Below are positions 1 through 14,653 of a DNA stretch of 22,154 nucleotides, piece after piece (the stretch's first letter is position 1; every line of letters starts with the position of its first letter). The stretch covers positions 1 through 22,154 of IMG/VR virus record IMGVR_UViG_3300021960_000579; one strand, 5' to 3'. This stretch comes from a virus. A program made the position numbers and the translations under genes. The notes beneath the pieces were generated by a model. That model was given only the letters and a program-made list of their open reading frames with translations. It was not told the DNA's origin and did not search any database.

Positions 1-1
1 A

Positions 2-1048
2 AACTACATTATCAAGGGATGGTTGAGCGACGATAGCATGTCAATCGTGTATGGCGCGTCAAACGTGGGCAAAACTTTTTTCTGCCAAGACATGGCGTGG
101 CACGTTGCTGCAAATGAACCTTGGCAGGGCAATAAGGTGCGTGGTGGGCCTGTGCTTTACCTGCAAACTGAGGGCGGGCTGTCATGGCAAGCGCGTATTG
201 CTGCGCTGCGCAAGAAATATCCAGAACATAAAAACGTGCGCTTAGCGATGCGCGCTGCACCTATTAACCTGTTCAACAGCGAAGAGGACATGGGGCGGGT
301 CAAAGCAATCTTGGAAGAGATGACAAAGAAGTTTGGACCTGTGCGCATGATCGTGGTCGATACAATTAGCCGTGCCACACAGGGGCAGCTAAACGAAAAC
401 GACAATAGCGAAATGGCGCAATTCGTCGCAAATTGCGACTCTTTGCGTGCAGAAACTGGCATTCATGTGCAGATGGTGGCGCACTCTGGAAAAGATGCAT
501 CGAAGGGCGTGCGTGGCGCGTCAAGCCTAAAGGCGGCAGCAGATACAGAGATCGAACTAACGCTTGACGAAGAAATGAGCGTCAGAACAGCCGTTGCAAC
601 AAAACAGCGCGACATGGAAGTGGGCAAATCGTTCAACTTTATTCTGGAAACGCAAACGATGGGCGAAGATGATGACGGCGATCCCATCACAACCTGTACT
701 ATCCGCGAAGCCACAGGCGAAGAGATGGAGCAAAAGCGCAAGACAAAGATCACTGGCAAGCAGCAACTGTTATTCAAAAAGGTATTCTATCAGTTGCGCG
801 GTGAGCGTGTCGGCAAGCCAAACCCTGCAGGTGCGGGATGGCCTGACGCGGGTCGCTTCTGGTGCATCCCAGAGGAAACCATCAAGGATCACTTCAAGGG
901 AAAATTGGTGGGCGCAACCAATCCAAGCCAAACCTATAAACAGGCGGTAAATGGCTTGCTTGAGGGTGGTCATATTGCTGCAAATGAGGGTCAAATTTGG
1001 TTTACTGACAAGGATGGCATGCTGAAAGACCCGTTCGACGCTGACTAA
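2..1048 (+). CDS. RecA/RepA-like AAA ATPase (helicase-type), 5' truncated
   Basis: The frame is open from base 2, so the gene begins left of the window; the TTG at 23 is inside the protein. The first residues (IIKGWLSDDSMSIVYGASNVGKTFF, cut by the window) have the layout of AAA_25/RepA-like ATPases. Walker A is GASNVGKT (bases 53-76). Walker B is MIVVDT near base 350, followed by a QMVAHSGKD segment and GVRGASSLKAAAD, matching the sensor/arginine area of the hexameric RSF1010 RepA/RecA-fold family. The C-terminal third (about bases 750-1020) looks like a winged-helix domain. In phages such proteins act in DNA replication or recombination as ring ATPases, often with a primase. Family assignment is solid; the exact role (helicase or recombination ATPase) is inferred. 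Confidence 0.85.
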   Translation, partial: NYIIKGWLSDDSMSIVYGASNVGKTFFCQDMAWHVAANEPWQGNKVRGGPVLYLQTEGGLSWQARIAALRKKYPEHKNVRLAMRAAPINLFNSEEDMGRVKAILEEMTKKFGPVRMIVVDTISRATQGQLNENDNSEMAQFVANCDSLRAETGIHVQMVAHSGKDASKGVRGASSLKAAADTEIELTLDEEMSVRTAVATKQRDMEVGKSFNFILETQTMGEDDDGDPITTCTIREATGEEMEQKRKTKITGKQQLLFKKVFYQLRGERVGKPNPAGAGWPDAGRFWCIPEETIKDHFKGKLVGATNPSQTYKQAVNGLLEGGHIAANEGQIWFTDKDGMLKDPFDAD

Positions 1049-1090
1049 TAATGACATTAGCAGCAAAAACAACGACTTAGGTGCGGTAAA

Positions 1091-1116
1091 TATTAGTTTT
1101 ATTAGCGAAATATTAG
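1091..1116 (+). repeat. three TATTAG repeats about one helical turn apart
   Basis: TATTAG occurs at 1091, 1100 and 1111, within an AT-rich block flanked by imperfectly inverted GTGCGG and CCGCGCAC. Further CTAAT/ATTAG copies lie at about 1043-1057, 1131 and 1171-1176. The spacing of 9 and 11 bp would put sites on one face of the helix. This fits binding of a regulator or intrinsic bending. No function is known. Confidence 0.4.
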
Positions 1117-1130
1117 CCGCGCACTAACAA

Positions 1131-1176
1131 CTAATAATAATAATAAAATGCCTATAGGCATTATTATTAAATTAGT
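1131..1176. promoter_or_regulatory. dyad element, copy 1 (CCTATAGG-centred)
   Basis: A perfect 16-bp palindrome AATGCCTATAGGCATT, centred at 1154.5, is flanked by TAA-repeat and TTA-repeat arms. The first 39 nt match copy 2 at 5440-5486 except for two positions (20 and 29), which are symmetric: G/C here and A/T there. The symmetry is therefore kept by compensating changes. It sits about 10-55 bp upstream of the nuclease-like gene. It could be an operator for a dimeric phage regulator or an RNA hairpin in the leader. Confidence 0.6.
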
Positions 1177-1186
1177 GGGGCGAATT

Positions 1187-1855
1187 ATGATTGAGATTGA
1201 GACAACTGAAGATCATAGAACTGCAGCCAAAGAACAAGCTAAGAATATGAAGCATCTTGGATCGCTTACTGCAGGTAAAAGGGATGCGCATGCCGCGCTT
1301 GCTGAGATTGTAGCGTGCGAATATGTGGGCGGCGAAATGGTGCGAGACTACAACCACGATTTTAAAACGTGGTGGGGCTTGAAGGTAGACGTAAAGAGTA
1401 AAATGCGTAGCGTACCGCCTGAGCCACATTTTGACGTAAATATTTTAGAATACACAAGGAAACAGGCATGCGACTTTTTGCTTTTCACCAGTGTTCTAAA
1501 AAATGGCTCTAAGGTTTGGATTTGTGGCGGGTATGGCAAGCAAGCATTCCTGCGCGATGCAAAGCTAATTAGGGCAGGTGAAACGCTTGGGTCAAATGGG
1601 CTAAAGATCACCCAAAACAATTATAGCATGCAGATCAAAGACATTTGGCAAGCTGAACCTGTGGTCAAAATGCTGCGTGGTGAGGGCGAGGCCAAGGCAA
1701 GGCCGCTGCACAAAATCCTACAAAGCATCCACACGCTAGAAGAGCTTGAAGGGCTTGCCAATCGTCGCAAATGGTTGCGCTCAGATTTGCCGCGTTGGAC
1801 TGAGGCAGAAATTGCGCAAATCAAGGAAAGAAAATGGCAGATCGAAAACCTATAG
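1187..1855 (+). CDS. probable PD-(D/E)XK-fold nuclease
   Basis: The start at 1187 is preferred because GGGG lies 6 bp upstream. The earlier ATG at 1148 lies inside the dyad element, has no ribosome site and would add 13 odd residues. The 222-residue protein has an N-terminal helix with AALAEIVACEYVGGE (candidate Glu40/Glu45), then D58 followed by the strand GLKVDVKSK with D68-x-K70, and a later alternating strand-helix segment DFLLFTSV. This is the order expected for PD-(D/E)XK nucleases. Residues 170-222 form a charged helical tail. It lies downstream of a replication-type ATPase, so recombination, resolution or host-DNA degradation are plausible roles. The fold is an inference from motifs; no closer family was recognised. 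Confidence 0.6.
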   Translation: MIEIETTEDHRTAAKEQAKNMKHLGSLTAGKRDAHAALAEIVACEYVGGEMVRDYNHDFKTWWGLKVDVKSKMRSVPPEPHFDVNILEYTRKQACDFLLFTSVLKNGSKVWICGGYGKQAFLRDAKLIRAGETLGSNGLKITQNNYSMQIKDIWQAEPVVKMLRGEGEAKARPLHKILQSIHTLEELEGLANRRKWLRSDLPRWTEAEIAQIKERKWQIENL

Positions 1856-2019
1856 TGTGGACCGTGCATCCAGATGGCGTTCACGTCCACACAGAGGGCC
1901 GCCTGATAGGGGTAATACCTGTTTCGCAGGGTATGTACCTGATCGAGCAGTTAGCGCCCTCTGTGGTGGCTTATATGCACTCACTGCAGGACAAACAAAA
2001 AACCCCGCAACCTGACTAG
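1834..2019 (+). CDS. small hypothetical protein, 61 aa
   Basis: The ATG at 1834 lies inside the last codons of the preceding gene, 22 bp before its stop, and is preceded by AAGGAAAG at good distance, so translation is probably coupled. The product begins MADRKPIVWTVHPDGVHVH and is soluble, with a short beta-rich N-terminal half and a helical C-terminal half ending in a Gln/Lys/Pro tail. The stop codon TAG (2017-2019) falls in the loop of the convergent terminator hairpin. No family recognised. Confidence 0.65.
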   Translation: MADRKPIVWTVHPDGVHVHTEGRLIGVIPVSQGMYLIEQLAPSVVAYMHSLQDKQKTPQPD

Positions 2020-2030
2020 CAGGAGCGGGG
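1991..2030 (-). terminator. rho-independent terminator of the minus-strand operon
   Basis: Stem CCCCGC (2003-2008) pairs with GCGGGG (2025-2030). An inner CCTG/CAGG stem tops it with a five-base loop. On the minus strand the hairpin is followed by six T's (complement of 1997-2002) then GTTTG, a classic terminator. On the + strand only CATTTTG follows, so it would be weaker for the rightward genes that converge here. Confidence 0.85.
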
Positions 2031-2056
2031 CATTTTGTGGCGAATGTTTGTTTCAA

Positions 2057-2386
2057 TTATTCATCGGCTGTATCGTCGTCGTCTGACATTTCAAACCAGA
2101 TACCCGCGCCAAAATCCCAATCAAGGCCATGCTCTCGCATGTTTTCTATTTGGTGATCGCATGGCTCAGTTCTGCTGAATGCGTTGTATAAACCCCACCG
2201 CGCGTTATCTAGCTCTCTAAGATCGCTCAGCAGAATTTCGAAACCATCGCTAACGCTGTCGATGATGCTGTTGACTGAGGCTTGCGCCTCTATCAATGCT
2301 TTGCGCTGCTCAGGTGTTAAACCTCGCATACCTAAGTTGCGGCTCTGCATACCCTCAAGCATGTCGATGTAATCTTGTTTAGTCAT
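2057..2386 (-). CDS. small hypothetical protein, 109 aa (last gene of minus operon)
   Basis: The start at 2386 has GAAAGGACACGCT directly upstream, a variant of the ribosome site shared by this operon. The protein is acidic and mostly helical: MTKQDYIDMLEGMQSRNLG at the start, a Pro-Glu-Gln helix, a helical stretch with FEILLSDLRELD, then an aromatic segment and a DDDD-containing acidic tail ending at 2057. It follows the 97-aa gene by 13 nt and is followed by the operon terminator. No family recognised. Its acidity could suit a DNA mimic or host-protein binder, but nothing in the sequence proves that. Confidence 0.75.
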   Translation of the reverse strand: MTKQDYIDMLEGMQSRNLGMRGLTPEQRKALIEAQASVNSIIDSVSDGFEILLSDLRELDNARWGLYNAFSRTEPCDHQIENMREHGLDWDFGAGIWFEMSDDDDTADE

Positions 2387-2399
2387 AGCGTGTCCTTTC

Positions 2400-2693
2400 T
2401 TATTTAAACGCTGTTAAAATTAGTTCTGCGCGCTCTGTGTCGCTTTGTTGCTGCAGCAACTCACGTAGCTGCAATTCAAGGCGCTCAACATCCGCAAGCG
2501 CTTTGTTTAGTATGTCATCAAGCTCATTGGCTTGACGTTCGATAATGGCGCAAGCAACCTCGCGGCCCGCATGGTCAAGCACGGTCACGCGCTTGATATT
2601 GGTTTGCATTGCGCCGTTCTGCGTAATCGCTGCGCTCAACTTTTGGTCAAGCGCGTCTGCGTTTACTAATGCTTTGCTGATTGTGTTGGTCAT
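2400..2693 (-). CDS. small coiled-coil protein, 97 aa
   Basis: The ATG (2691-2693) overlaps the TGA of the upstream gene as ATGA, with GGAGG 9 bases upstream inside that gene, so translation is coupled. The N-terminal half is a helix then a short beta stretch (IKRVTVLDHAGREVACAII). Residues 55-97 are a long Leu/Glu/Gln helix (DVERLELQLRELLQQQSD) with heptad-like spacing, suggesting a dimeric coiled coil. It lacks the hairpin leader of the early genes in the operon. Function unknown. Confidence 0.7.
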   Translation of the reverse strand: MTNTISKALVNADALDQKLSAAITQNGAMQTNIKRVTVLDHAGREVACAIIERQANELDDILNKALADVERLELQLRELLQQQSDTERAELILTAFK

Positions 2694-2881
2694 AGCGCGG
2701 CCTCCAACATGCCCTCGAACTGTTCAACAATATCGTCGGTCATCTTGCGATTGATTGGCAAACGTAAATCTAATTCATGGCGCAACGTGTCGAGGGCGTA
2801 AACAAATTTATCCTCTGTCGCTGCGTATTCCATAGCGCGGTCAAGCGATACCAAACGCTGCATTTTTTCTGTTAGTGTCAT
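2690..2881 (-). CDS. small helical hypothetical protein, 63 aa
   Basis: The ATG at 2879-2881 is preceded by GAAAGGACAGAGC, one base different from the operon's shared ribosome-site block. An upstream in-frame ATG at 2935 lies inside the preceding gene and would only add translated leader, so it is rejected. The 63 residues are almost wholly helical and charged (MTLTEKMQRLVSLDRAMEY at the start). The stop overlaps the next start as ATGA. No family recognised. Confidence 0.7.
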   Translation of the reverse strand: MTLTEKMQRLVSLDRAMEYAATEDKFVYALDTLRHELDLRLPINRKMTDDIVEQFEGMLEAAL

Positions 2882-2894
2882 GCTCTGTCCTTTC

Positions 2895-3062
2895 TTACAG
2901 TTCGATGATGAATAGATGACCATCAAGGTCAACAAATTGGTGGGCCTCTGTGATTGCTACCGTGTAGTCAGGATCAAGAGGATCAGCAGCGCAAAAGACA
3001 ACGTGCCCATCGTGCCACATGTTGTGCGCTTGCTCTGTGTCGTAGGTTTCTAGCTCTGTCAT
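2895..3062 (-). CDS. small hypothetical protein, 55 aa
   Basis: The start at 3062 follows GAAAGGACACAGC, identical to the ribosome-site block of the hairpin-led genes, and this block begins inside the stop (TGA) of the 35-aa gene upstream. The product is short and acidic, with His/Trp-rich N-terminal part (QAHNMWHDGHVVFCAADP) and beta-like C-terminal half (HQFVDLDGHLFIIEL). The hairpin itself is missing here. No family recognised. Confidence 0.65.
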   Translation of the reverse strand: MTELETYDTEQAHNMWHDGHVVFCAADPLDPDYTVAITEAHQFVDLDGHLFIIEL

Positions 3063-3073
3063 GCTGTGTCCTT

Positions 3074-3181
3074 TCATGGTGTCACGTATAAAAACGCGAA
3101 TGTGATAATGATTACTGCCACGCCACCTAGCCAATCTGACAAGGTGGCATGCTTTGCTGCCTCAATGAATTGCTTGATCAT
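3074..3181 (-). CDS. 35-aa single-pass membrane micro-protein
   Basis: The ATG (3179-3181) overlaps the stop of the upstream gene as ATGA; GAGGGG lies just upstream. The protein is MIKQFIEAAKHATLSDW followed by a hydrophobic stretch of about 16 residues (GGVAVIIITFAFLYV) and the end TP. This is one predicted membrane helix with an amphipathic N-terminus. It fills an otherwise empty 116-bp gap and its stop merges with the next gene's ribosome site, which supports it being real. Phage micro-proteins of this shape often act on the inner membrane (lysis timing, exclusion), but the role here is unknown. Confidence 0.6.
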   Translation of the reverse strand: MIKQFIEAAKHATLSDWLGGVAVIIITFAFLYVTP

Positions 3182-3405
3182 TTTGCCAACCCCTCAATCA
3201 ATGATTGCGGAACAACGCGCGCATCGCCGAACGCATCGCCTAAATATTTCTTGATATGCTTTGACGTTGTTGGACTAAACTTTGTGTCAGTCTTAAACGC
3301 GCCTTGGTCATCCCAACCCGCAACAGGTGTTGAATATGAAAAGGCAAAGGTCATGCCGTTGATTTGCAATTCTGTCAGATTGCTTGCGATTGTTTTGATT
3401 TTCAT
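3178..3405 (-). CDS. small hypothetical protein, 75 aa (FSYxTPVA / TTSKHI type)
   Basis: The start at 3405 is set by the conserved leader ending GAAAGGACACAGC just upstream; reading further upstream translates the hairpin leader and is an artefact. The protein has MKIKTIASNLTELQINGM, a beta strand with FAFSYSTPVAGW, then FSPTTSKHIKKYLG. From memory this resembles a small family found in phages and plasmids with an FSYxTPVA strand and a TTSKHI helix; no function is established for it that I know. Its stop overlaps the 35-aa membrane gene. Confidence 0.75.
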   Translation of the reverse strand: MKIKTIASNLTELQINGMTFAFSYSTPVAGWDDQGAFKTDTKFSPTTSKHIKKYLGDAFGDARVVPQSLIEGLAK

Positions 3406-3472
3406 GCTGTGTCCTTTCTTTGGTTTGATTGCATGTGCAGGCAATGCCGTGACATTGCCCCAGATGAAATCA
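3406..3472 (-). ncRNA. covarying hairpin leader, copy 1
   Basis: This 67-nt leader begins with the stop TGA of the upstream gene and ends at the base before the next ATG. Outer stem P1 pairs TGATTTCAT with ATGCAATCA (one T-C mismatch). Inner stem P2 is GGCAATGT/GCATTGCC (last pair U-G) with loop CACG. The tail AACCAAAGAAAGGACACAGC carries the Shine-Dalgarno AAAGGA and looks unstructured. Identical to copy 2. Confidence 0.75.
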
Positions 3473-3727
3473 GTCATCCCAACCGTGGCCTAACTCAATC
3501 GCATTTTCCAAGGCGATCTCAACCATATCTGCGGCGAAGTTGGGGAACGCTGCGCGGTCAATCGTAAATGGTGCGAAATTCTCTAAACGCTCTGACAAGA
3601 TGTCATAAGCGATAAAGCAATCCTCAGCGTCTGCATGCGCGTTATCATCGCGGCGACAGTCGCCAATGCCCTCAAGCTCAGTAAGCAAAAGCTCAAGATT
3701 GTTTTTGGTTTTGATATGTAAGTTCAT
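3470..3727 (-). CDS. small acidic hypothetical protein, 85 aa
   Basis: The start at 3727 follows the shared leader (copy 2); the longer in-frame version from 3766 only translates that leader. The product is acidic and helical: MNLHIKTKNNLELLLTELEG, then a Cys-Arg-Arg-Asp segment, a helix with ERLENFAPF, and an Ala/Glu helix ending GHGWDD. Its TGA stop is the first triplet of leader copy 1. No family recognised. Confidence 0.7.
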   Translation of the reverse strand: MNLHIKTKNNLELLLTELEGIGDCRRDDNAHADAEDCFIAYDILSERLENFAPFTIDRAAFPNFAADMVEIALENAIELGHGWDD

Positions 3728-3794
3728 GCTGTGTCCTTTCTTTGGTTTGATTGCATGTGCAGGCAATGCCGTGACATTGCCCCAGATGAAATCA
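3728..3794 (-). ncRNA. covarying hairpin leader, copy 2
   Basis: Sequence identical to copy 1 over all 67 nt, again starting with the TGA of the upstream gene and ending at the next ATG. P2 is GGCAATGT/GCATTGCC with loop CACG. The identity to copy 1, compared with the diverged inner stems of copies 3 and 4, suggests a recent duplication or gene conversion. Confidence 0.75.
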
Positions 3795-4100
3795 GTTTTT
3801 AATTGTATGCGCCAACGTCACGTTTGCGCTGGTTGTGGGATTGCCATTGCCAACAATGAACGTGTAGCGATGAATATCGCATGCCAAAACGCCAAAACGA
3901 GTTGCATCGTGATGCTTGCTGAAATGTGGTTCTTCTTCCATATCTACTGGTTCGGACGTACCGTAAGTCTCAACCGACCAGTGGCAAAAATCATGGAACG
4001 CTTTTTCATCCTCATATTCAAATCCGCTTGTGTCATCGTAAAACAATGCAGTGGCCCAGAAATCAGGCAATTCCAATGTTATGGTCTCCATCTTTGTCAT
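3792..4100 (-). CDS. small hypothetical protein, 102 aa
   Basis: The start at 4100 follows leader copy 3; a second Met at residue 4 is possible but the leader spacing favours the first. The sequence has a short beta start (ITLELPDFWATALFYDD), an acidic aromatic middle, then EEPHFSKHHDATRFGVLACD and a beta strand YTFIVGNG. From memory this resembles a small bacterial/phage family with WAxALxxGD near the start and HDAxxxGVLA near the end; no activity is known to me. The stop TGA is the first triplet of leader copy 2. Confidence 0.7.
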   Translation of the reverse strand: MTKMETITLELPDFWATALFYDDTSGFEYEDEKAFHDFCHWSVETYGTSEPVDMEEEPHFSKHHDATRFGVLACDIHRYTFIVGNGNPTTSANVTLAHTIKN

Positions 4101-4167
4101 GCTGTGTCCTTTCTTTGGTTTGATTGCATGTGAAGGCAGTCTCGAAAGACTGCCCCAGATGAAATCA
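4101..4167 (-). ncRNA. covarying hairpin leader, copy 3
   Basis: Same 67-nt length and same P1 and tail as copies 1 and 2, but P2 is GGCAGTCT/AGACTGCC with a TTCG tetraloop. Three P2 base pairs differ from copy 1 (G-C for A-T, C-G for G-C, and T-A for T-G), each change keeping pairing. It starts with the TGA of the upstream gene. Confidence 0.8.
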
Positions 4168-4407
4168 AAGGTTGCTTGTGTTTACTGCACGTATGACACC
4201 GTGTCGCGTCATCCATGCCGTGTTGTTGATCAAGAAGCGCTCACCATCATTTTGTGTGACGGTCAGCCCTTCACGCTCTGCGGCGCGTTGCATTGCACCA
4301 GCATCACCGTAAGGTAAGTCAAAGGCACCTGATTGGATCAGGTAGTAGTTAACGATTGAACCGTGGTTTGCTGCGCGGTGCATTGTGCGTGTGATGATAT
4401 TTTTCAT
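4165..4407 (-). CDS. small hypothetical protein, 80 aa (first gene of minus operon)
   Basis: The start at 4407 follows leader copy 4 with the shared GAAAGGACACAGC block. The frame stays open upstream to 4608, but that part lacks a ribosome site and runs through the leader hairpin, so it is not taken. The protein has a basic helical start (MKNIITRTMHRAANHG), a beta segment NYYLIQSGAFDLPYGD, a helix with MQRAAEREGLTV and a C-terminal part with FLINNTAWMTRHGVIRAV. It is promoter-proximal and probably the most abundant early product. No family recognised. Confidence 0.7.
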   Translation of the reverse strand: MKNIITRTMHRAANHGSIVNYYLIQSGAFDLPYGDAGAMQRAAEREGLTVTQNDGERFLINNTAWMTRHGVIRAVNTSNL

Positions 4408-4475
4408 GCTGTGTCCTTTCTTTGGTTTGATTGCATGGTGATGCAGCATCGAAATGCTGCACTCGATACAATCGA
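4408..4475 (-). ncRNA. covarying hairpin leader, copy 4
   Basis: The most diverged copy (68 nt). P2 is TGCAGCAT/ATGCTGCA with loop TTCG. P1 is GATTGTAT/ATGCAATC, fully paired (one U-G), where the other copies carry a T-C mismatch. There is no upstream gene here, so the element does not depend on a preceding stop codon. It sits at the end of the long 5' untranslated region of the operon. Confidence 0.75.
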
Positions 4476-4643
4476 AGAGAAACAAACATTCGCCTGAAAC
4501 CACGTTGCGGGCCATGATCTGATTTAGGGGTTCCTCACAGGTACAGCGGGCGACAACGTACAAGTCGTGCGGCCTATATGGCCTGAGCTGAGAGGCGGGG
4601 CGTGTCATGCGCGGGGCAATGCCCGATCTCTCAACCTATCAAA
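4476..4643 (-). other. long 5' untranslated region of the minus operon
   Basis: If transcription starts near 4637, about 160 nt precede leader copy 4. I see possible pairing of ACGTTG (4502-4507) with CAACGT (4554-4559), GGCC-N5-GGCC (4571-4583) and GGGC-AAT-GCCC (4614-4624). No ribosome site and no convincing gene were found. Known riboswitch classes were not recognised. Confidence 0.35.
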
Positions 4644-4661
4644 TTGATAGCATGGATCGGG
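4622..4661. promoter_or_regulatory. nested inverted repeat, operator-like
   Basis: CCCGATC (4622-4628) and GATCGGG (4655-4661) enclose the 15-bp dyad CTATCAAATTGATAG (4636-4650). The inner dyad covers the predicted -10 of the minus-strand promoter, so a bound dimer would block transcription. Confidence 0.6.
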
Positions 4662-4673
4662 AAAGGGCGTCAA
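4644..4673 (-). promoter_or_regulatory. predicted sigma70-type promoter of the minus operon
   Basis: On the minus strand TTGACG (4673-4668) lies 18 bp before TATCAA (4649-4644), five and four matches to consensus. Being a host-type promoter placed before the small-gene operon, it suits early expression. It overlaps one TATC-N5-GATA dyad and lies next to another. Confidence 0.5.
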
Positions 4674-4683
4674 CTAAAAATGT

Positions 4684-4696
4684 TATCTAAATGATA
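4684..4696. promoter_or_regulatory. second TATC-N5-GATA dyad
   Basis: TATCTAAATGATA repeats the TATC-N5-GATA plan of the dyad at 4637-4649 with a centre-to-centre distance of 47 bp. It lies just upstream of the predicted -35 of the minus promoter, a usual place for a second operator. Confidence 0.5.
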
Positions 4697-4735
4697 GGTT
4701 TTTTACGGGCAGCCCTAAAGGGCTGAGAATGTCAA

Positions 4736-4858
4736 ACAATGGGCAAAATATATCGCGATGATAGCAAAATTAGGGGTAACGACATTTTATGACCTGAGCA
4801 TTGCGAGAAATTTACCTGCACTCAGCGGGCGTTTCTGGGCCTCTCAGAGGTATTTCAC
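4736..4858. other. non-coding stretch, nothing recognised
   Basis: This AT-rich part of the divergent region holds no convincing gene; short open frames here lack ribosome sites and have implausible composition. Just to its left, AGCCC-TAAA-GGGCT (4711-4724) forms a small hairpin without a T-run. Confidence 0.4.
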
Positions 4859-4914
4859 GTTTTGTTCTGGTTTTGCGGCAGTTTTGCGTGGGTGCGCGGT
4901 ATACCATTGTTTTG
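4859..4914 (+). repeat. GTTTTG direct repeats with 11-bp period
   Basis: GTTTTG starts at 4859, 4870 and 4881, exactly 11 bp apart, with a fourth at 4909. The third and fourth units share GTTTTGCGTGG/GTTTTGCTTGG (10 of 11). Phased T-tracts suggest bending or iteron-like protein binding. No gene overlaps them. Confidence 0.55.
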
Positions 4915-5018
4915 CTTGGTATTTCATTGTGCGGGATTTGGCAGAGTGAGTGCAAAGCTGGACGCAACGCACATTGAAACACAGAGTTGCGCACGGGCGC
5001 GCGCGAATAGCACATTGT

Positions 5019-5228
5019 GAAACATTCGTACAGCCTTTGTACTGCTCAGTACTGTTTTTGTGCAACCGTGTACAATTTAGTGCAATGCGCGGGCATTGTT
5101 TCTCATTGTACTAAATCAGTACAATGCAATACCGTGCGAAACATTCGCGTGTCTATTGTTCTTGACTGTACTGGGTCAGGCGCTTGCAATACTGAGCAGT
5201 ACAATCCAGTGCAACGGTATGCAATCTT
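5019..5228. repeat. cluster of GTAC-centred dyads and direct repeats, origin-like
   Basis: Dyads: GTACTG-CT-CAGTAC (5039-5052), CAATGC-GCGG-GCATTG (5083-5098), ATTGTACT-N5-AGTACAAT (5105-5125) and TACTG-AG-CAGTA (5190-5201), the last being the first in opposite orientation. Direct repeats: GAAACATTCG at 5019 and 5138, and TACAAT followed by GTGCAA at 5071 and 5200. The density and lack of coding content fit a replication origin or a multi-site operator; the choice between them is open. Confidence 0.5.
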
Positions 5229-5235
5229 GCAAAAG

Positions 5236-5265
5236 CCCCCCCCGTCACACCCCCACCCCTACCCC
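5236..5265 (-). repeat. G-quadruplex-like block (C-runs on + strand)
   Basis: Four C-runs of 8, 5, 4 and 4 (5236-5243, 5250-5254, 5256-5259, 5262-5265) give four minus-strand G-runs separated by loops of 1-6 nt, which satisfies the usual G-quadruplex pattern. It lies right next to the dyad cluster. Confidence 0.6.
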
Positions 5266-5319
5266 TGTTATTATTATACATTCCCACACAGAAAAATTTG
5301 TGCTACACATTTTGTCGAG

Positions 5320-5382
5320 CGCTGCAGTCCTCTAGTCCAAACCCCTCCCTAATGGACGCTTTCTTCCTCACTGGCTGCAGCG
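5320..5382. repeat. nested inverted repeats upstream of terS
   Basis: Outer arms CGCTGCAG (5320-5327) and CTGCAGCG (5375-5382) enclose inner arms GTCCA (5335-5339) and TGGAC (5353-5357). About 140 bp before the terminase small subunit gene, this is where cos or pac recognition sites often lie. Function not demonstrated. Confidence 0.4.
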
Positions 5383-5394
5383 TTCATTTTGCCT

Positions 5395-5423
5395 TTGAAA
5401 ATCTATCAAAGTAATACTAATAT
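5395..5423 (+). promoter_or_regulatory. predicted sigma70-type promoter before terS
   Basis: TTGAAA (5395-5400) and TAATAT (5418-5423) are separated by 17 bp, five and four matches to consensus. Transcription would start near 5430 and put the CCTATAGG dyad into the leader of the late operon. Confidence 0.45.
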
Positions 5424-5439
5424 CGGTACAGTGCTGGGA

Positions 5440-5486
5440 CTAATAATAATAATAAAATACCTATAGGTATTATTATTAGTATTAGT
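5440..5486. promoter_or_regulatory. dyad element, copy 2 (CCTATAGG-centred)
   Basis: The perfect palindrome AATACCTATAGGTATT, centred at 5463.5, carries the same TAA/TTA arms as copy 1 at 1131-1176. Only one symmetric base pair differs in the shared 39 nt. It lies 34-80 bp before the terS start and is surrounded by CTAAT/ATTAG words, as copy 1 is. Confidence 0.65.
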
Positions 5487-5519
5487 ACAGTACACGCAAG
5501 GCTAATTTAGGAGTTATGT

Positions 5520-6017
5520 ATGGCTGGTAAGCCTAAGTTGAAAGCTGCTCTTGCAGCCCTTGATAGAAGGGGTGGCCCTGAAGCTTTGCAGCAGGAATTG
5601 CTTTCGGGCAAAACCATTCCAATGATTGCGAAAGAGCTTGGGTTAGATCGTGGTTATTTGCAGCGCAACCTGATGAAGAACGAAGAGTACGGCAAGGCGA
5701 TAAAAGAGGTTGAAGCTGAGGTTGCTGACGTGCAGGCTGCTCTTGCTCTTCAGGAGCTTGTTGAGTTGAAGGAAGAGCGTGCTGATGAGAAGGCGGCTGC
5801 ACGCAATCCTGATAATGAAGCTGTGGATAAAAACCTGCAGTATGTCAGTCAGGTTGATATTGGCATTGCCAAGGGCTTAGCCCACCAGCGCAACTTTATT
5901 GCTGCTAGTTTTAATAAGGCGCGCTATGGTAGCGGCAATCAGCAGAACATTCAGATCAACATTGGTGACTTACATTTGGATGCGCTGCGGAAAGCTAAGG
6001 TGATTGACCATGAGTGA
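5520..6017 (+). CDS. terS: terminase small subunit
   Basis: The start at 5520 has AGGAG (5509-5513) 6 bp upstream. The 165-aa protein begins basic (MAGKPKLKAALAALDRRGG), then has a helix-turn-helix at about residues 30-55 (SGKTIPMIAKELGLDRGYLQ), a long helical stretch (60-125) for oligomer formation and a basic C-terminal segment. This order and size, together with direct overlap with the large subunit gene, fit the DNA-recognition subunit of the packaging motor, which binds a cos or pac site. The neighbouring non-coding repeats are candidate targets. Its final codons overlap the terL start by 8 bp. Confidence 0.85.
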   Translation: MAGKPKLKAALAALDRRGGPEALQQELLSGKTIPMIAKELGLDRGYLQRNLMKNEEYGKAIKEVEAEVADVQAALALQELVELKEERADEKAAARNPDNEAVDKNLQYVSQVDIGIAKGLAHQRNFIAASFNKARYGSGNQQNIQINIGDLHLDALRKAKVIDHE

Positions 6018-10175: not shown

Positions 10176-11786
10176 ATGGTTAAGTTAGCCAATCGCGTTA
10201 AAGTTGCCACGGCGACGACAGGCACAGGCACAGTTACGCTTGGGTCTGCTGAAACAGGCTACCAAACGTTTGCAGATGGCGGCGTAGCTGATGGCGATAC
10301 TGTTCGCTACACCATTGAGGATGGTAACGATTGGGAGATTGGCACTGGAACCTACACAGCGACAGGCACGACTTTAACGCGCACCTTGACAGAAAGTTCC
10401 ACTGGATCGCTTCTTAGCTTAACTGGAAGCGCTGTTGTATTTCTGTCTGCGGTCAATGAAGATGTTGTTCTCTGGCAGAGTGAGTGGCCAGAGGATACTG
10501 GCGCGTATGGTGATAATGTACCTATTGGCAATCGGGCTTTGCACAACCTTACAGATGGTTATACAAATACTGCGGTGGGGGATAATGCATTAGCGGGTAT
10601 AATTACTGGCCATCATAATACGGCGATTGGAACTGGTGCTGGCCCTTCTAATAGCACTAACGCTTCAGGTACTGATTATGGCACTTTTATAGGAAGTCTT
10701 GCTAATTTCAACGCTAGTAGTGACGCTAATTACAAAACTGTTTTAGGCTATTATGCTGCCCCTTCAAGCGATGGACTTGGGGGTACCGTTGTTGGCGCAC
10801 TTGCTGGCAACAGCATGACGACGAGCTCAGAGGATACTGTTATAGGTTACCAAGCAGGTCAAGGTCTAGTTAGCAGCGGATACTCTGTGATAATCGGAGG
10901 TTGGTCTGGCGTAAATTATAACGCTGGCAGTTTAATGGCTATCGGCTATGGGGCAAAATGCAACGGTACATCATCCATAAGTTTGGGCTATTTCGCAGGG
11001 CAAAACGCAACTGGACAATCTGATCTTTGCGTAAACATTGGCCAGTATGCAGGACGCTATGAGGGTGGCGGTGATCGCAATGTTCGCATAGGCGGCAGAA
11101 ACTCTTATAGCTATTATTCAACTGGCCTAGAAAACGTTGCTGTTGGGTATTATTCAAATAGATATGAGCAATATGGGCGGTCTAATACATCAGTTGGAGC
11201 GTATGCTAACTACGAGGGCAACTCTACTGATTACAGTGTAAATATTGGATATAACGCTGGGCGATACAATTACTATAATGATTATTGCACTAATGTAGGT
11301 GTCCAAGCTGGTAACTACACATCTACCATGCAGGGTCAATATTGCACATCTATAGGAGCTTATGCCCAGCCAAATAGTCGTACATCGTGGGGGCAATTTA
11401 CCCTTGGCAATAACCAAGTTAGCACTTTAAGATGTAATGACACTTCCATATCAACGCTATCTGATGAGCGCGATAAAACAAACATTCAAGACATTCCATA
11501 CGGACTAGACTTTATTAACTATGTTCGTCCAGTTTCATTTGATTGGAACAGGCGCGATGGATCAATGGGCACCCGAAAAGATATTGGCTTTATTGCGCAA
11601 GACCTTGTTGATGCTGAATTAGAGTTTTCGTCTGTTCAACATACAAGGCTTGTTGATTACAGTGATCCTGAAAAACTAGAAGCCAGAACACACGCAATTT
11701 TTCCAATTTTGGTTAAAGCGGTTCAAGAATTATCACAGAAAAACGATGCGCTTGAAGCGCGCATTGCTCAACTAGAAGGAAACTAA
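10176..11786 (+). CDS. tail fibre 1 with S74-type intramolecular chaperone
   Basis: The 536-aa protein has a beta-rich N-terminal domain (1-105) probably for virion attachment, a long middle (110-420) of repeats like [27 protein letters not shown] and CTNVGVQAG that resemble the left-handed coil of trimeric adhesin heads, and a C-terminal Peptidase_S74 domain. The self-cleaving site is at S429-D430 in [11 protein letters not shown], with the usual SFDW, IGFIAQD and [10 protein letters not shown] blocks and a final coiled coil. In this family the chaperone helps the trimer fold, then is released by cleavage. It probably binds the host surface. Confidence 0.9.
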
Positions 11787-12034: not shown

Positions 12035-13282
12035 ATGCTAGGCTTTACACCATTAGCGGCTGCGCCTCTCGCAGATGATGGTGTAGAGGTATCCACAGGC
12101 GGCGGAACATCTATCCCCGTAAACGACATCACGGCTGGAGCGCCAGCCGTTGATAGTATTGGTGTAAGTCCTGTCTACAATTTCAATGCAGACGACATAA
12201 CAACAACTCCAGTTGTTGATGCTATTGGCACACCAATAACTTACAATCTTAGCGTTGACAGTATAGAGACAGCGCCTGTCGTTGATGCGGTCAGTGTTGG
12301 GGTTGTTCATGTATTTAATGCGAATGATGTAACGTCTACACCTGTTGTTGATAGTGCAACCGCATTATTTACAGATGTTCTGAGCGCAGTCAGTTTAGGC
12401 CCAGAGGTCACAAACTACACTGTGACTGTCGCCGACAATGGTGGCAATAAATTTTACATTGATGGAACGTCAAACCCAACGCTATCTTTGGTGCGTGGGC
12501 AAAAGTATGTCTTTGATTTAAGTGACAGTAGCAACACAGGTCACCCTCTTGTCTTTACGCTATCAGATGGAACAACCAGTTATACTGATGGCGTAACGTC
12601 AGTTGGAACTGCTGGTTCATCTGGCGCGACTGTGACGTTTTTGGTGCCAAGCGATGCGCCCGCAAGTTTGCGTTACGTCTGTAGTGTTCACGGCTCTAGC
12701 ATGGGCAACACTATTAGCGTATCAACGCAAACCATTGGATTACGGCCAACCGTTGATGACGCAACCCCGCAATACACTGACGTTCTTTATGCGGATGACA
12801 TTGCGTCTGGAGCGCCCACGGTAGACGGAGCAACCCCGCAATATACAGATGTACTTTCTGCCGACGAAATCACGCTTGGCTCGCCCATCGTTGACACTGC
12901 ACCTGTCTTTGAAAACGAGACTTGTGATGTTGACGACATTGCGTCTGGCGCTCCTGTCGTAGATGCCGCAAGCGTTCAATATACAGATGTTCTTGCGGCA
13001 GACGACATCACTGCAAGCGCACCGCAAATTGACACACTGCCATTCTTCCAAGAATACGCGCTGACAATGGTGGAGATCACGGCGGGCGTACCGACACTGC
13101 CTGCTCGCTTTACTTGGGACTATCAGGAGCCGCCCACCGATAGTTGGACAGATCAGGCCGATGATGATAGTGTATGGACAACGCAGGCTGACAGTAGCGA
13201 CACTTGGACGGAAGCTACAGAGCCAACAGATATATGGACTGATGTTACTGACCCAACCGACACATGGTCAGAAGCTGCATAG
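12035..13282 (+). CDS. repeat protein with embedded blue-copper-like (cupredoxin) domain and Trp-periodic tail
   Basis: In this 415-aa protein, residues 28-122 and 235-350 hold 22-23-residue repeats of the pattern ADDIxSGAPxVDxAxxQYTDVL. Between them, residues 126-231 read as a cupredoxin domain: a beta sandwich with H170 (TGHPLVF) and C216-S-V-H219-G-S-S-M223, the ligand order of type 1 copper sites. The C-terminus has tryptophans at 361, 371, 381, 391, 401 and 411, exactly ten residues apart, in Thr/Asp-rich units. It lies between two fibre genes and is probably an exposed virion component. Copper binding is predicted from ligand spacing only. From memory, similar cupredoxin-like domains occur in marine phage structural proteins. 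Confidence 0.75.
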   Translation: MLGFTPLAAAPLADDGVEVSTGGGTSIPVNDITAGAPAVDSIGVSPVYNFNADDITTTPVVDAIGTPITYNLSVDSIETAPVVDAVSVGVVHVFNANDVTSTPVVDSATALFTDVLSAVSLGPEVTNYTVTVADNGGNKFYIDGTSNPTLSLVRGQKYVFDLSDSSNTGHPLVFTLSDGTTSYTDGVTSVGTAGSSGATVTFLVPSDAPASLRYVCSVHGSSMGNTISVSTQTIGLRPTVDDATPQYTDVLYADDIASGAPTVDGATPQYTDVLSADEITLGSPIVDTAPVFENETCDVDDIASGAPVVDAASVQYTDVLAADDITASAPQIDTLPFFQEYALTMVEITAGVPTLPARFTWDYQEPPTDSWTDQADDDSVWTTQADSSDTWTEATEPTDIWTDVTDPTDTWSEAA

Positions 13283-13291
13283 GAGACTTAG

Positions 13292-14653
13292 ATGGCTGAT
13301 ACAACGACAACAACGTATGGTCTAACCAAGCCAGAAGTAGGAGCTTCTGCTGATAGTTGGGGTACAAAGCTCAACACGAATTTGGACACCATTGACGATC
13401 TTCTTGATGGCACAACTGCTATTGCGCCAAACCTGACTGAGGGTTCATGGCAAATTGGCGGTACTGCGATTACAATCACAGCGGCAGAACTTAATGAGCT
13501 TGCAGACTTTGCAGGTACGTTCGCGCTTCCAGCCTCTGACGGAACAAATGGTCAGGCGTTGGTAACAGATGGCTCTGGCAATCTTTCATTTTCTGGCAGC
13601 ACACTAACTGGCTCAACAACTTCAACGACAACGGCATTAGGTGTGAGCGCAGATGCGAATAACACCAATGTTGTCGCCGTGGGTAATAATGCAAACGCAT
13701 CTGGTACAGCGGGAAACCATAGCACTCTTATCGGTGCTTATGCTGGCTATCAGCTTGAGGCCACATCAGATACGAATACCTGCATTGGCTACAACACAAT
13801 GCGTAATTATACGGGTTTAAGTGGCTCAAACACATGTATTGGCTCTGAGGCAAACTATGGCCTTTCACGAACAGGCGGTGCGTATAATACTGTAGTTGGT
13901 CATAACGCGGCAGTTTATGGGTATTCATCATCAGGTGATTACAATATCGCGGTAGGTGCAGGAGCAAGTGACTACGGTGGCAGCGGTAGCAACAATATCG
14001 GTATTGGTTACCATACTGTAAGAGGTTCAGTGTCAACTGGCGTAACGGGGAGTTACAACATTGGCATAGGTTACACTTCTGGAAGTGCTTTATCTAGCGG
14101 GGGTTACAATACTGGCTTAGGATACGCCTCTGGCGCTCTTGTAAGCACTGGCTCTTATAACACTACACTTGGATACAACGCTGGTAGCGCGTTTTCTCCA
14201 TTTCAGCTAAGTACCCAAAGTAACAGGGTCATTATTGGTGATAATAACGTCACAAATGCATATGTTAGAGTTTCTTGGACTGTGACATCAGACGCGCGTG
14301 ACAAGGCAGATGTTACGCCAATCCCTTCAAGCCTAGACTTTGTTGAAGCACTAAACCCAGTTACGTTTAAATGGGACAACCGTTCGGATTATTACGTCAT
14401 GGACGATGACGGCAACATTACAGACAAGCCAACACCAGACGGGACACATAAAGGTGACAAGCTGTTCGCTGGTTTCCTTGCGCAAGAGGTGCAGCAAGTC
14501 ATTGATGACCTTGGCTACGTTGACGATGTAATCGTGGACAATGAGCAAGAAGATTTGCTGAAAATCAAAGAAACCGCGTTAATCCCTGTACTGGTCAAAG
14601 CGGTGCAAGAATTAAGCGCGAAGGTTAAGGTGCTTGAAGCTGCGGCGGGGTAA
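13292..14653 (+). CDS. tail fibre 2 with S74-type intramolecular chaperone
   Basis: AGGAG overlapping the previous stop gives the ribosome site. In the 453-aa protein, the N-terminus [20 protein letters not shown] and [13 protein letters not shown] is a common phage fibre attachment segment. The middle (120-310) has [36 protein letters not shown] and similar repeats. The C-terminal S74 domain has the cleavage pair S333-D334 in [23 protein letters not shown] and [11 protein letters not shown]. It is a paralogue of fibre 1 in plan but with a different N-terminus and an insert in the chaperone domain, so both may sit on one virion. Confidence 0.9.

Follow-up and report, generated by a model that had tools for sequence, protein, structure and literature searches.

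What is the role of a structured sequence that is repeated in front of successive genes of a viral operon? The question is raised by a 22-kb virus record (IMG/VR IMGVR_UViG_3300021960_000579, positions 1 to 22,154), the whole of which was analysed and is referred to here as the window. The window carries a plus-strand gene set including helicase, terminase and structural genes, and its minus strand carries an operon of small genes, the first four of which are each preceded by a repeated leader (Table 1). The leaders are one family of structured intercistronic mRNA elements, located between a stop codon and the next Shine-Dalgarno (SD) sequence. A DNA search with the whole operon against isolated phages gave no match.

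Four leaders in the window

Each leader consists of a two-tier hairpin followed by a conserved SD tail. A repeat search recovered the four leaders as 74-nt copies, and minimum free energy (MFE) folding gave for each an outer stem, an inner stem of 8–9 bp and a 4-nt loop, in agreement with the first-pass annotation made from the sequence. Copies 1 and 2 are identical letter for letter, and the four copies counted there thus amount to three independent sequences. The z-scores of the folds against shuffled sequences were -1.4 (copy 1), -3.2 (copy 3) and -2.7 (copy 4). Leader 1 reads TGATTTCATCTGGGGCAATGTCACGGCATTGCCTGCACATGCAATCA AACCAAAGAAAGGACACAGC ATG on the minus strand, and its 47-nt fold, (((((.(((.(((((((((((....))))))))).)).))).))))), comprises 5 bp, a mismatch, 3 bp, a C.C mismatch, a clamp and inner stem with one bulge, and a 4-nt loop.

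When the three distinct copies are compared, both partners differ in four of the inner pairs (G-C/T-A, A-T/G-C, T-A/C-G and G-C/C-G/A-T). One further pair changes on a single side (T-G/T-A), so that the covariation reported earlier holds, with its "five or more" pairs a slight overcount. Two other details described before were found again: in copy 4 the outer T.C mismatch becomes a G-C pair, and in copies 1–3 the first triplet of the outer stem is the TGA of the upstream gene. In copy 4, which opens the operon without an upstream gene, the adjoining C-G becomes T-G.

Table 1. Positions of the leaders, their genes and other features in the window.
Feature	Position	Strand	Remarks
Leader 1	3406–3472	-	repeat copy 3401–3474, identity 100%
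Leader 1 hairpin	3426–3472	-	before gene 1; 5' TGA terminates gene 2
Leader 1 tail	3406–3425	-	A-rich spacer and SD (AACCAAAGAAAGGACACAGC)
Leader 2	3728–3794	-	repeat copy 3723–3796, identity 100%
Leader 2 hairpin	3748–3794	-	identical to leader 1; 5' TGA terminates gene 3
Leader 2 tail	3728–3747	-	SD
Leader 3	4101–4167	-	repeat copy 4096–4169, identity 85%
Leader 3 hairpin	4121–4167	-	inner stem GGCAGTCT/AGACTGCC, loop TTCG; 5' TGA terminates gene 4
Leader 3 tail	4101–4120	-	SD
Leader 4	4408–4475	-	repeat copy 4403–4476, identity 72%
Leader 4 hairpin	4429–4473	-	inner stem TGCAGCAT/ATGCTGCA, loop TTCG; first in operon, no gene directly upstream
Leader 4 tail	4408–4428	-	SD
Gene 1	3178–3405	-	75 aa, phrog_5643, behind leader 1; ATG at 3405–3403
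Gene 2	3470–3727	-	85 aa, behind leader 2
Gene 3	3792–4100	-	102 aa, sub-threshold DUF6926 match, behind leader 3
Gene 4	4165–4407	-	80 aa, first gene of the operon, behind leader 4
Junction without hairpin	3063–3085	-	before the 55-aa gene at 2895–3062
16-nt repeat GGCGAATGTTTGTTTC	2039–2054	+	flanks the operon
16-nt repeat GGCGAATGTTTGTTTC	4479–4494	-	flanks the operon
AT-rich inverted repeat ACTAATAATAATAATAAAATRCCTATAGGYATTATTATTA	1130–1169		upstream of a plus-strand gene
AT-rich inverted repeat ACTAATAATAATAATAAAATRCCTATAGGYATTATTATTA	5439–5478		upstream of a plus-strand gene
Non-coding gap	4970–5230		dense CATTGT and GTACTG/CAGTAC repeats
Tail-spike-like proteins	10176–11786, 13292–14653		neighbouring
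Repeat-containing protein	12035–13282		69-nt period at 12745–13020

Several other repeats were observed in the window. The perfect 16-nt inverted repeat GGCGAATGTTTGTTTC flanks the minus operon, with one copy in the operon 5' leader and the other just before the 3' terminator-like GC stem, and it recurs at one or both operon ends in close relatives (at both in L003 and L093). The ends of the operon mRNA may pair through these copies, or the copies may be repeats at the ends of a segment open to exchange. The two copies of ACTAATAATAATAATAAAATRCCTATAGGYATTATTATTA are 95% identical and differ by a compensating pair; AATGCCTATAGGCATT is present twice in L085, too. The repeat-dense gap between the divergent operons is possibly an origin or operator. 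Among the structural genes, the two tail-spike-like proteins have similar C-terminal regions and match the same PHROGs, and another protein carries tandem repeats of about 23 residues.

Familiar identities did not account for the leaders. Permissive E-value scans of positions 1–6000 and seven related loci against Rfam 15 returned only chance matches below the gathering scores. We rejected an intrinsic terminator or attenuator, as the tail is AAACCAAAGAAAGG, with no U run and no terminator-like minus-strand site at the leaders. No match in a promoter scan covering the sigma-70-like type overlaps a leader, and a leader peptide starting from the ATG in the right arm was discarded since its frame shifts with spacer length between relatives. 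Scanning for hairpins by energy alone was too noisy to use.

Covariation in related leaders

Close relatives, all of them metagenomic contigs, were collected from IMG/VR by exact and gapped DNA patterns that fixed the flanks and left the inner stem free. In an alignment of 18 close leaders built without reference to structure (A2), 92.9% of the cells pair. Changes on both sides occur at 10 of the 18 pairs, including 8 of the 9 within the inner helix, counts that are inflated by kinship among the rows, with the slid controls of equal kinship remaining near zero. The covariation score was 0.414, against 0.149 for shuffles and 0.001–0.077 for slid partners. Unaided, RNAalifold predicted both helices from A2, including 15 of the 18 pairs.

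A covariance model from A2 (R1) was used to search distant contigs encoding a close terminase, where it found leaders of other sequence, nearly all strong matches preceding an SD and ATG in the minus operon. Nineteen leaders from four other lineages formed a second alignment (A4), with 95.9% of the cells paired, a proportion set partly by construction through the pairing-demanding descriptor that chose the rows; two of these lineages were independently recovered by the flank-only patterns. Both-side changes were found at 13 of the 18 pairs of A4, and its covariation score was 0.630 (0.198 for shuffles, at most 0.068 for slid partners). With the covariance model from A4 (R2), a leader in L065 that belongs to the window's lineage but not to the training set was recovered at an E-value of 3.4e-7, to be read as rough like the other covariance-model E-values, and this match ties the lineages together. 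R2 was also run on 75 loci, a set with many unrelated phage contigs brought in by chance pattern matches; it gave ten matches at E<=1, and all ten sit in contigs fetched via the flank patterns.

The covarying arms of the relatives in A2 and in A4 strongly support selection on structure rather than sequence, as had been proposed from the four copies. From the alignments, it is nearly certain that the leader structure is real and that the fold is kept by selection while nearly every letter changes. This result contradicts an account in which the leaders are leftover copies of a mobile repeat sharing their structure by common descent. The copies are indeed homologous and repeated, with one identical pair, but common ancestry by itself does not explain why 10 to 13 of the 18 pairs change on both sides when the slid controls stay close to zero, and we regard that account as scarcely credible.

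A common architecture with a C.C mismatch

In most lineages the leaders follow one plan, in which the outer stem is followed by a C.C (rarely U.C) mismatch, then by a clamp that covaries, an internal loop and finally the inner stem. The outer stem often ends in CAT/ATG. The clamp has 2 bp (TG/CA, CA/TG, GG/CC or GC/GC), the internal loop is 1x2 or 3x3 (e.g., TTA/CTT or TGT/CAT), and the GC-rich inner stem measures 7–9 bp. Two-tier hairpins followed by an SD and ATG within 50 nt occurred 36 times in 675 kb, against 0, 0, 0, 0 and 1 (weak) in five Markov shuffles.

When the mismatch was left free in the window and 80 terminase loci, a score of at least 14 and an SD and ATG within 50 nt selected 30 unique hairpins, 26 with C.C and 4 with T.C, some of the T.C calls being alternative registers of C.C hairpins. 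No other kind of mismatch was present among these 30. Hairpins lacking the SD and ATG showed all kinds, with G.G the commonest because it is the antisense of C.C. Clear U.C cases are one leader each in L001 and L065. The C.C mismatch is not universal, as it is absent from the type H leaders of L085 and from a second leader type of L082 and L087.

These other leader types deserve a description of their own. The L085 type, whose middle is conserved (TGATGACCAGCC...GGCTGGCATTCA), is present in several copies; in four of them, at 2912–2977, 4149–4220, 4965–5033 and 5898–5967 on the minus strand of L085, the distal stems differ between copies and still pair. The second type (AATAATATTATCAGACTAGCC...) was observed at 4527–4592 (-) of L087 and before an 87-aa gene of L082, in the same phages that carry the C.C type.

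The folded strand and the anatomy of the junction

Folding of the mRNA strand predicts G.U rather than A.C at its non-Watson-Crick positions. With the register of the inner stems set by Watson-Crick pairs alone, the sense strand shows 20 G.U against 1 A.C, events that are partly non-independent. This asymmetry indicates that the folded molecule is the mRNA strand and not DNA. The orientation of a leader always matches that of its gene. Forty leaders have an upstream frame of 30 codons or more; in 34 of them the upstream stop falls at positions 0 to +5 relative to the estimated base of the stem, and most of the others are off by 1–5 nt. Since the stop may be TGA, TAA or TAG and the stem sequences vary, the placement of the stop at the base survives sequence change.

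On the downstream side, the 3' base of the hairpin lies 16–45 nt before the ATG and the 3' internal loop 32–60 nt before it (32–51 nt in 38 of 39 leaders; 32–36 nt in most leaders of the window's lineage). In the computed folds the SD has a median unpaired probability of 0.78 and the inner stem a median paired probability of 1.0, showing that the leaders, as modelled, leave the SD mostly free.

The same observations bear on whether the leaders could be DNA-level sites, folded as single strands or palindromic, that serve in recombination or cassette exchange or are bound by DNA-binding proteins, the kind of site suggested for the extended start-associated sequences (ESAS) of other phages. The modular gene content between leaders, the identity of copies 1 and 2 and a junction at which the hairpin is present or absent (see below) would suit such sites. 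However, the wobble pairs are biased to the sense strand, the orientation is fixed directly before SD and ATG with a stop at the base, and no sigma-70-like promoter or terminator overlaps a leader, which makes a DNA-level role highly improbable. Of the functions put forward in the first-pass annotation, the folded single-stranded DNA site is therefore disfavoured by the wobble asymmetry and the strict orientation by the SD, and the RNA-level roles of processing site, insulator or protein-binding RNA are retained.

Modularity, distribution and host

Genes of 29 protein groups have a leader in front of them, and the type of leader before gene 1 orthologues differs between lineages. Operon maps of the window's close relatives show that units of hairpin and gene are gained and lost. 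At the junction before the 55-aa gene, a hairpin is found in L003 and L012 and none in the window and L097, the adjoining genes being kept; the element is thus separable and not tied to a gene. In L002, leader and gene 1 directly follow 9 nt matching the end of gene 3, an apparent loss of gene 2. As this site lies at a contig end with identical repeats, the loss may be an assembly effect, and it was excluded from the evidence.

The phage clade, which is marine and uncultured, has at least 592 relatives in IMG/VR. A terminase relative with 79% identity in a Rhodobacteraceae bin (one binned contig) and the closest relative of a structural protein, in an Octadecabacter phage (one isolate), suggest an alphaproteobacterial host. 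An R1 search of the isolate relatives Octadecabacter DB virus 2, Sinorhizobium phiM5 and MW202879 found no leader, and the Rhodobacteraceae genome with the terminase relative had no R1 match in a search run without a positive control.

Possible functions of the leaders

Since their geometry resembles that of T7 sites, the leaders are best read as intercistronic mRNA-processing and insulating hairpins working like T7 RNase III sites, a proposal by analogy to which we give an even chance. Counting against it are the atypical cutting of R1.1 by the S. meliloti enzyme and its preference for longer dsRNA (PMC6121014), the slightly smaller size of the leader hairpins, the leader types lacking C.C and the tentative assignment of the host. 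In this scheme, cleavage by a host RNase specific for double strands would fall close to the internal loop, some 32–51 nt ahead of the next start. The upstream message would be left capped by a 3' hairpin and the downstream gene would gain a short 5' leader of its own, which would make expression of each small gene independent of the adjoining one. While terminating at the stop in the outer stem, a ribosome would briefly disrupt that stem, so that translation of the upstream gene could influence whether the site forms or is cut.

The hairpin could also remain uncut, acting as an insulator or stabiliser that separates termination from the next initiation, opens the A-rich SD region and shields mRNA ends without an endonuclease. 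The position between stop and SD in every lineage, the free SD and the retention of structure through sequence change would all fit this tentative alternative, as would the junction that has a plain overlapping SD in two phages and a hairpin in two others. However, a plain barrier should need no fixed C.C mismatch, clamp and internal loop at a set distance from the base, and we consider it possible rather than probable.

The conservation of the C.C mismatch in the leaders but not in T7 also speaks against the processing reading, as it asks for something more specific than generic double-strand cutting. A phage or host RNA-binding regulator might read the C.C mismatch, clamp and internal loop and control translation or decay of all leader genes, the lineage-specific outer stems tracking changes of the regulator. 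C.C or U.C is fixed across unrelated stem sequences, the outer region is common to the leaders of one phage, and orthologous genes in different lineages bear different types, all of which such a regulator could explain. Recombination between copies could likewise keep the outer parts alike, however, and even the leaders of a single phage differ freely in inner stem and loop. As the SD is not sequestered and no candidate protein was found, we consider a regulator unlikely. More broadly, and with doubtful prospects in our judgement, the leaders might constitute a cis-acting phage RNA family in which a dedicated factor reads the invariant C.C mismatch and clamp, ribosomes stopping in the stem switch the element, and a portable module gives acquired small genes their own translation unit.

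The leaders represent an RNA family with good support and no Rfam counterpart, in a phage clade known from several hundred IMG/VR contigs. With them, the T7-style idea of one structured site per junction reaches another phage group, in a site that evolves by compensatory change. They also offer an explanation for the gain and loss of single small genes, each of which brings or meets a standard junction of stop, hairpin and SD. The doubted idea of structured start-associated repeats also becomes testable at the RNA level.

Comparison with known systems

The earlier statement that no named element fits stands with respect to Rfam, but known systems match the leaders in part: T7 RNase III signals in architecture and ESAS in placement. 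REP-type and other 3'-stabilising intercistronic hairpins follow directly after a stop codon within an operon. Unlike the leaders, they have no fixed association with a conserved SD tail or with the start codon that follows.

Start-associated sequences (SAS) and ESAS have been described in Cluster K mycobacteriophages (PMC3203893) and Cluster EF Microbacterium phages (PMC7302621). Like the leaders, ESAS present a repeated conserved motif at the SD position before many small non-structural genes; some have an inverted repeat just upstream, and the consensus varies by phage subgroup. In Cluster K, imperfect 17-bp inverted repeats with a variable spacer lie upstream of the SAS GGGATAGGAGCCC. The ESAS authors found no support for RNA pairing in the way the arms change and preferred to read the elements as DNA sites, and SigA-like promoters were later identified in ESAS (PMC11373665). 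The leaders differ in their strongly covarying arms, in showing no sigma-70-like promoter, and in a tail of AAAGAAAGGACACAGC instead of GGGATAGGAGCCC, with hairpin arms unrelated to those of ESAS.

The T7 early RNase III signals R0.3, R0.5, R1, R1.1 and R1.3 are likewise two-tier hairpins of about 50 nt between genes of a polycistronic phage message, and both they and the leaders comprise an outer stem, a mismatch, an internal loop, an upper stem and a small loop. Four of the five T7 cut sites sit 27–35 nt before the next start, with site positions and fold windows set by literature coordinates. Folded in the manner of the leaders, the five T7 sites yield a closely similar picture. The T7 sites have no sequence kinship with the leaders, R2 finding none in the T7 early region (L260), and they are without the invariant C.C mismatch and 2-bp clamp. 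R1.1 is a 60-nt hairpin with a 4/5 internal loop and is cut into fragments of 47 and 13 nt (PMC6121014, PMC4858673). RNase III of the alphaproteobacterium S. meliloti cuts the R1.1 substrate, atypically, and prefers longer dsRNA (PMC6121014). Cleavage is proven for the T7 sites, and for the leaders it is predicted from their likeness. Over 51 nt, R1.1 folds as (((((.(((.(..((((((((((....))))))))))...).))).))))), i.e., 5 bp, a mismatch, 3 bp, a mismatch, 1 bp, a 2x3 loop, 10 bp and a 4-nt loop. The leader hairpins are slightly shorter, and leader 1 and R1.1 have a nearly identical folded geometry, each an irregular two-tier hairpin with an internal loop between cistrons.
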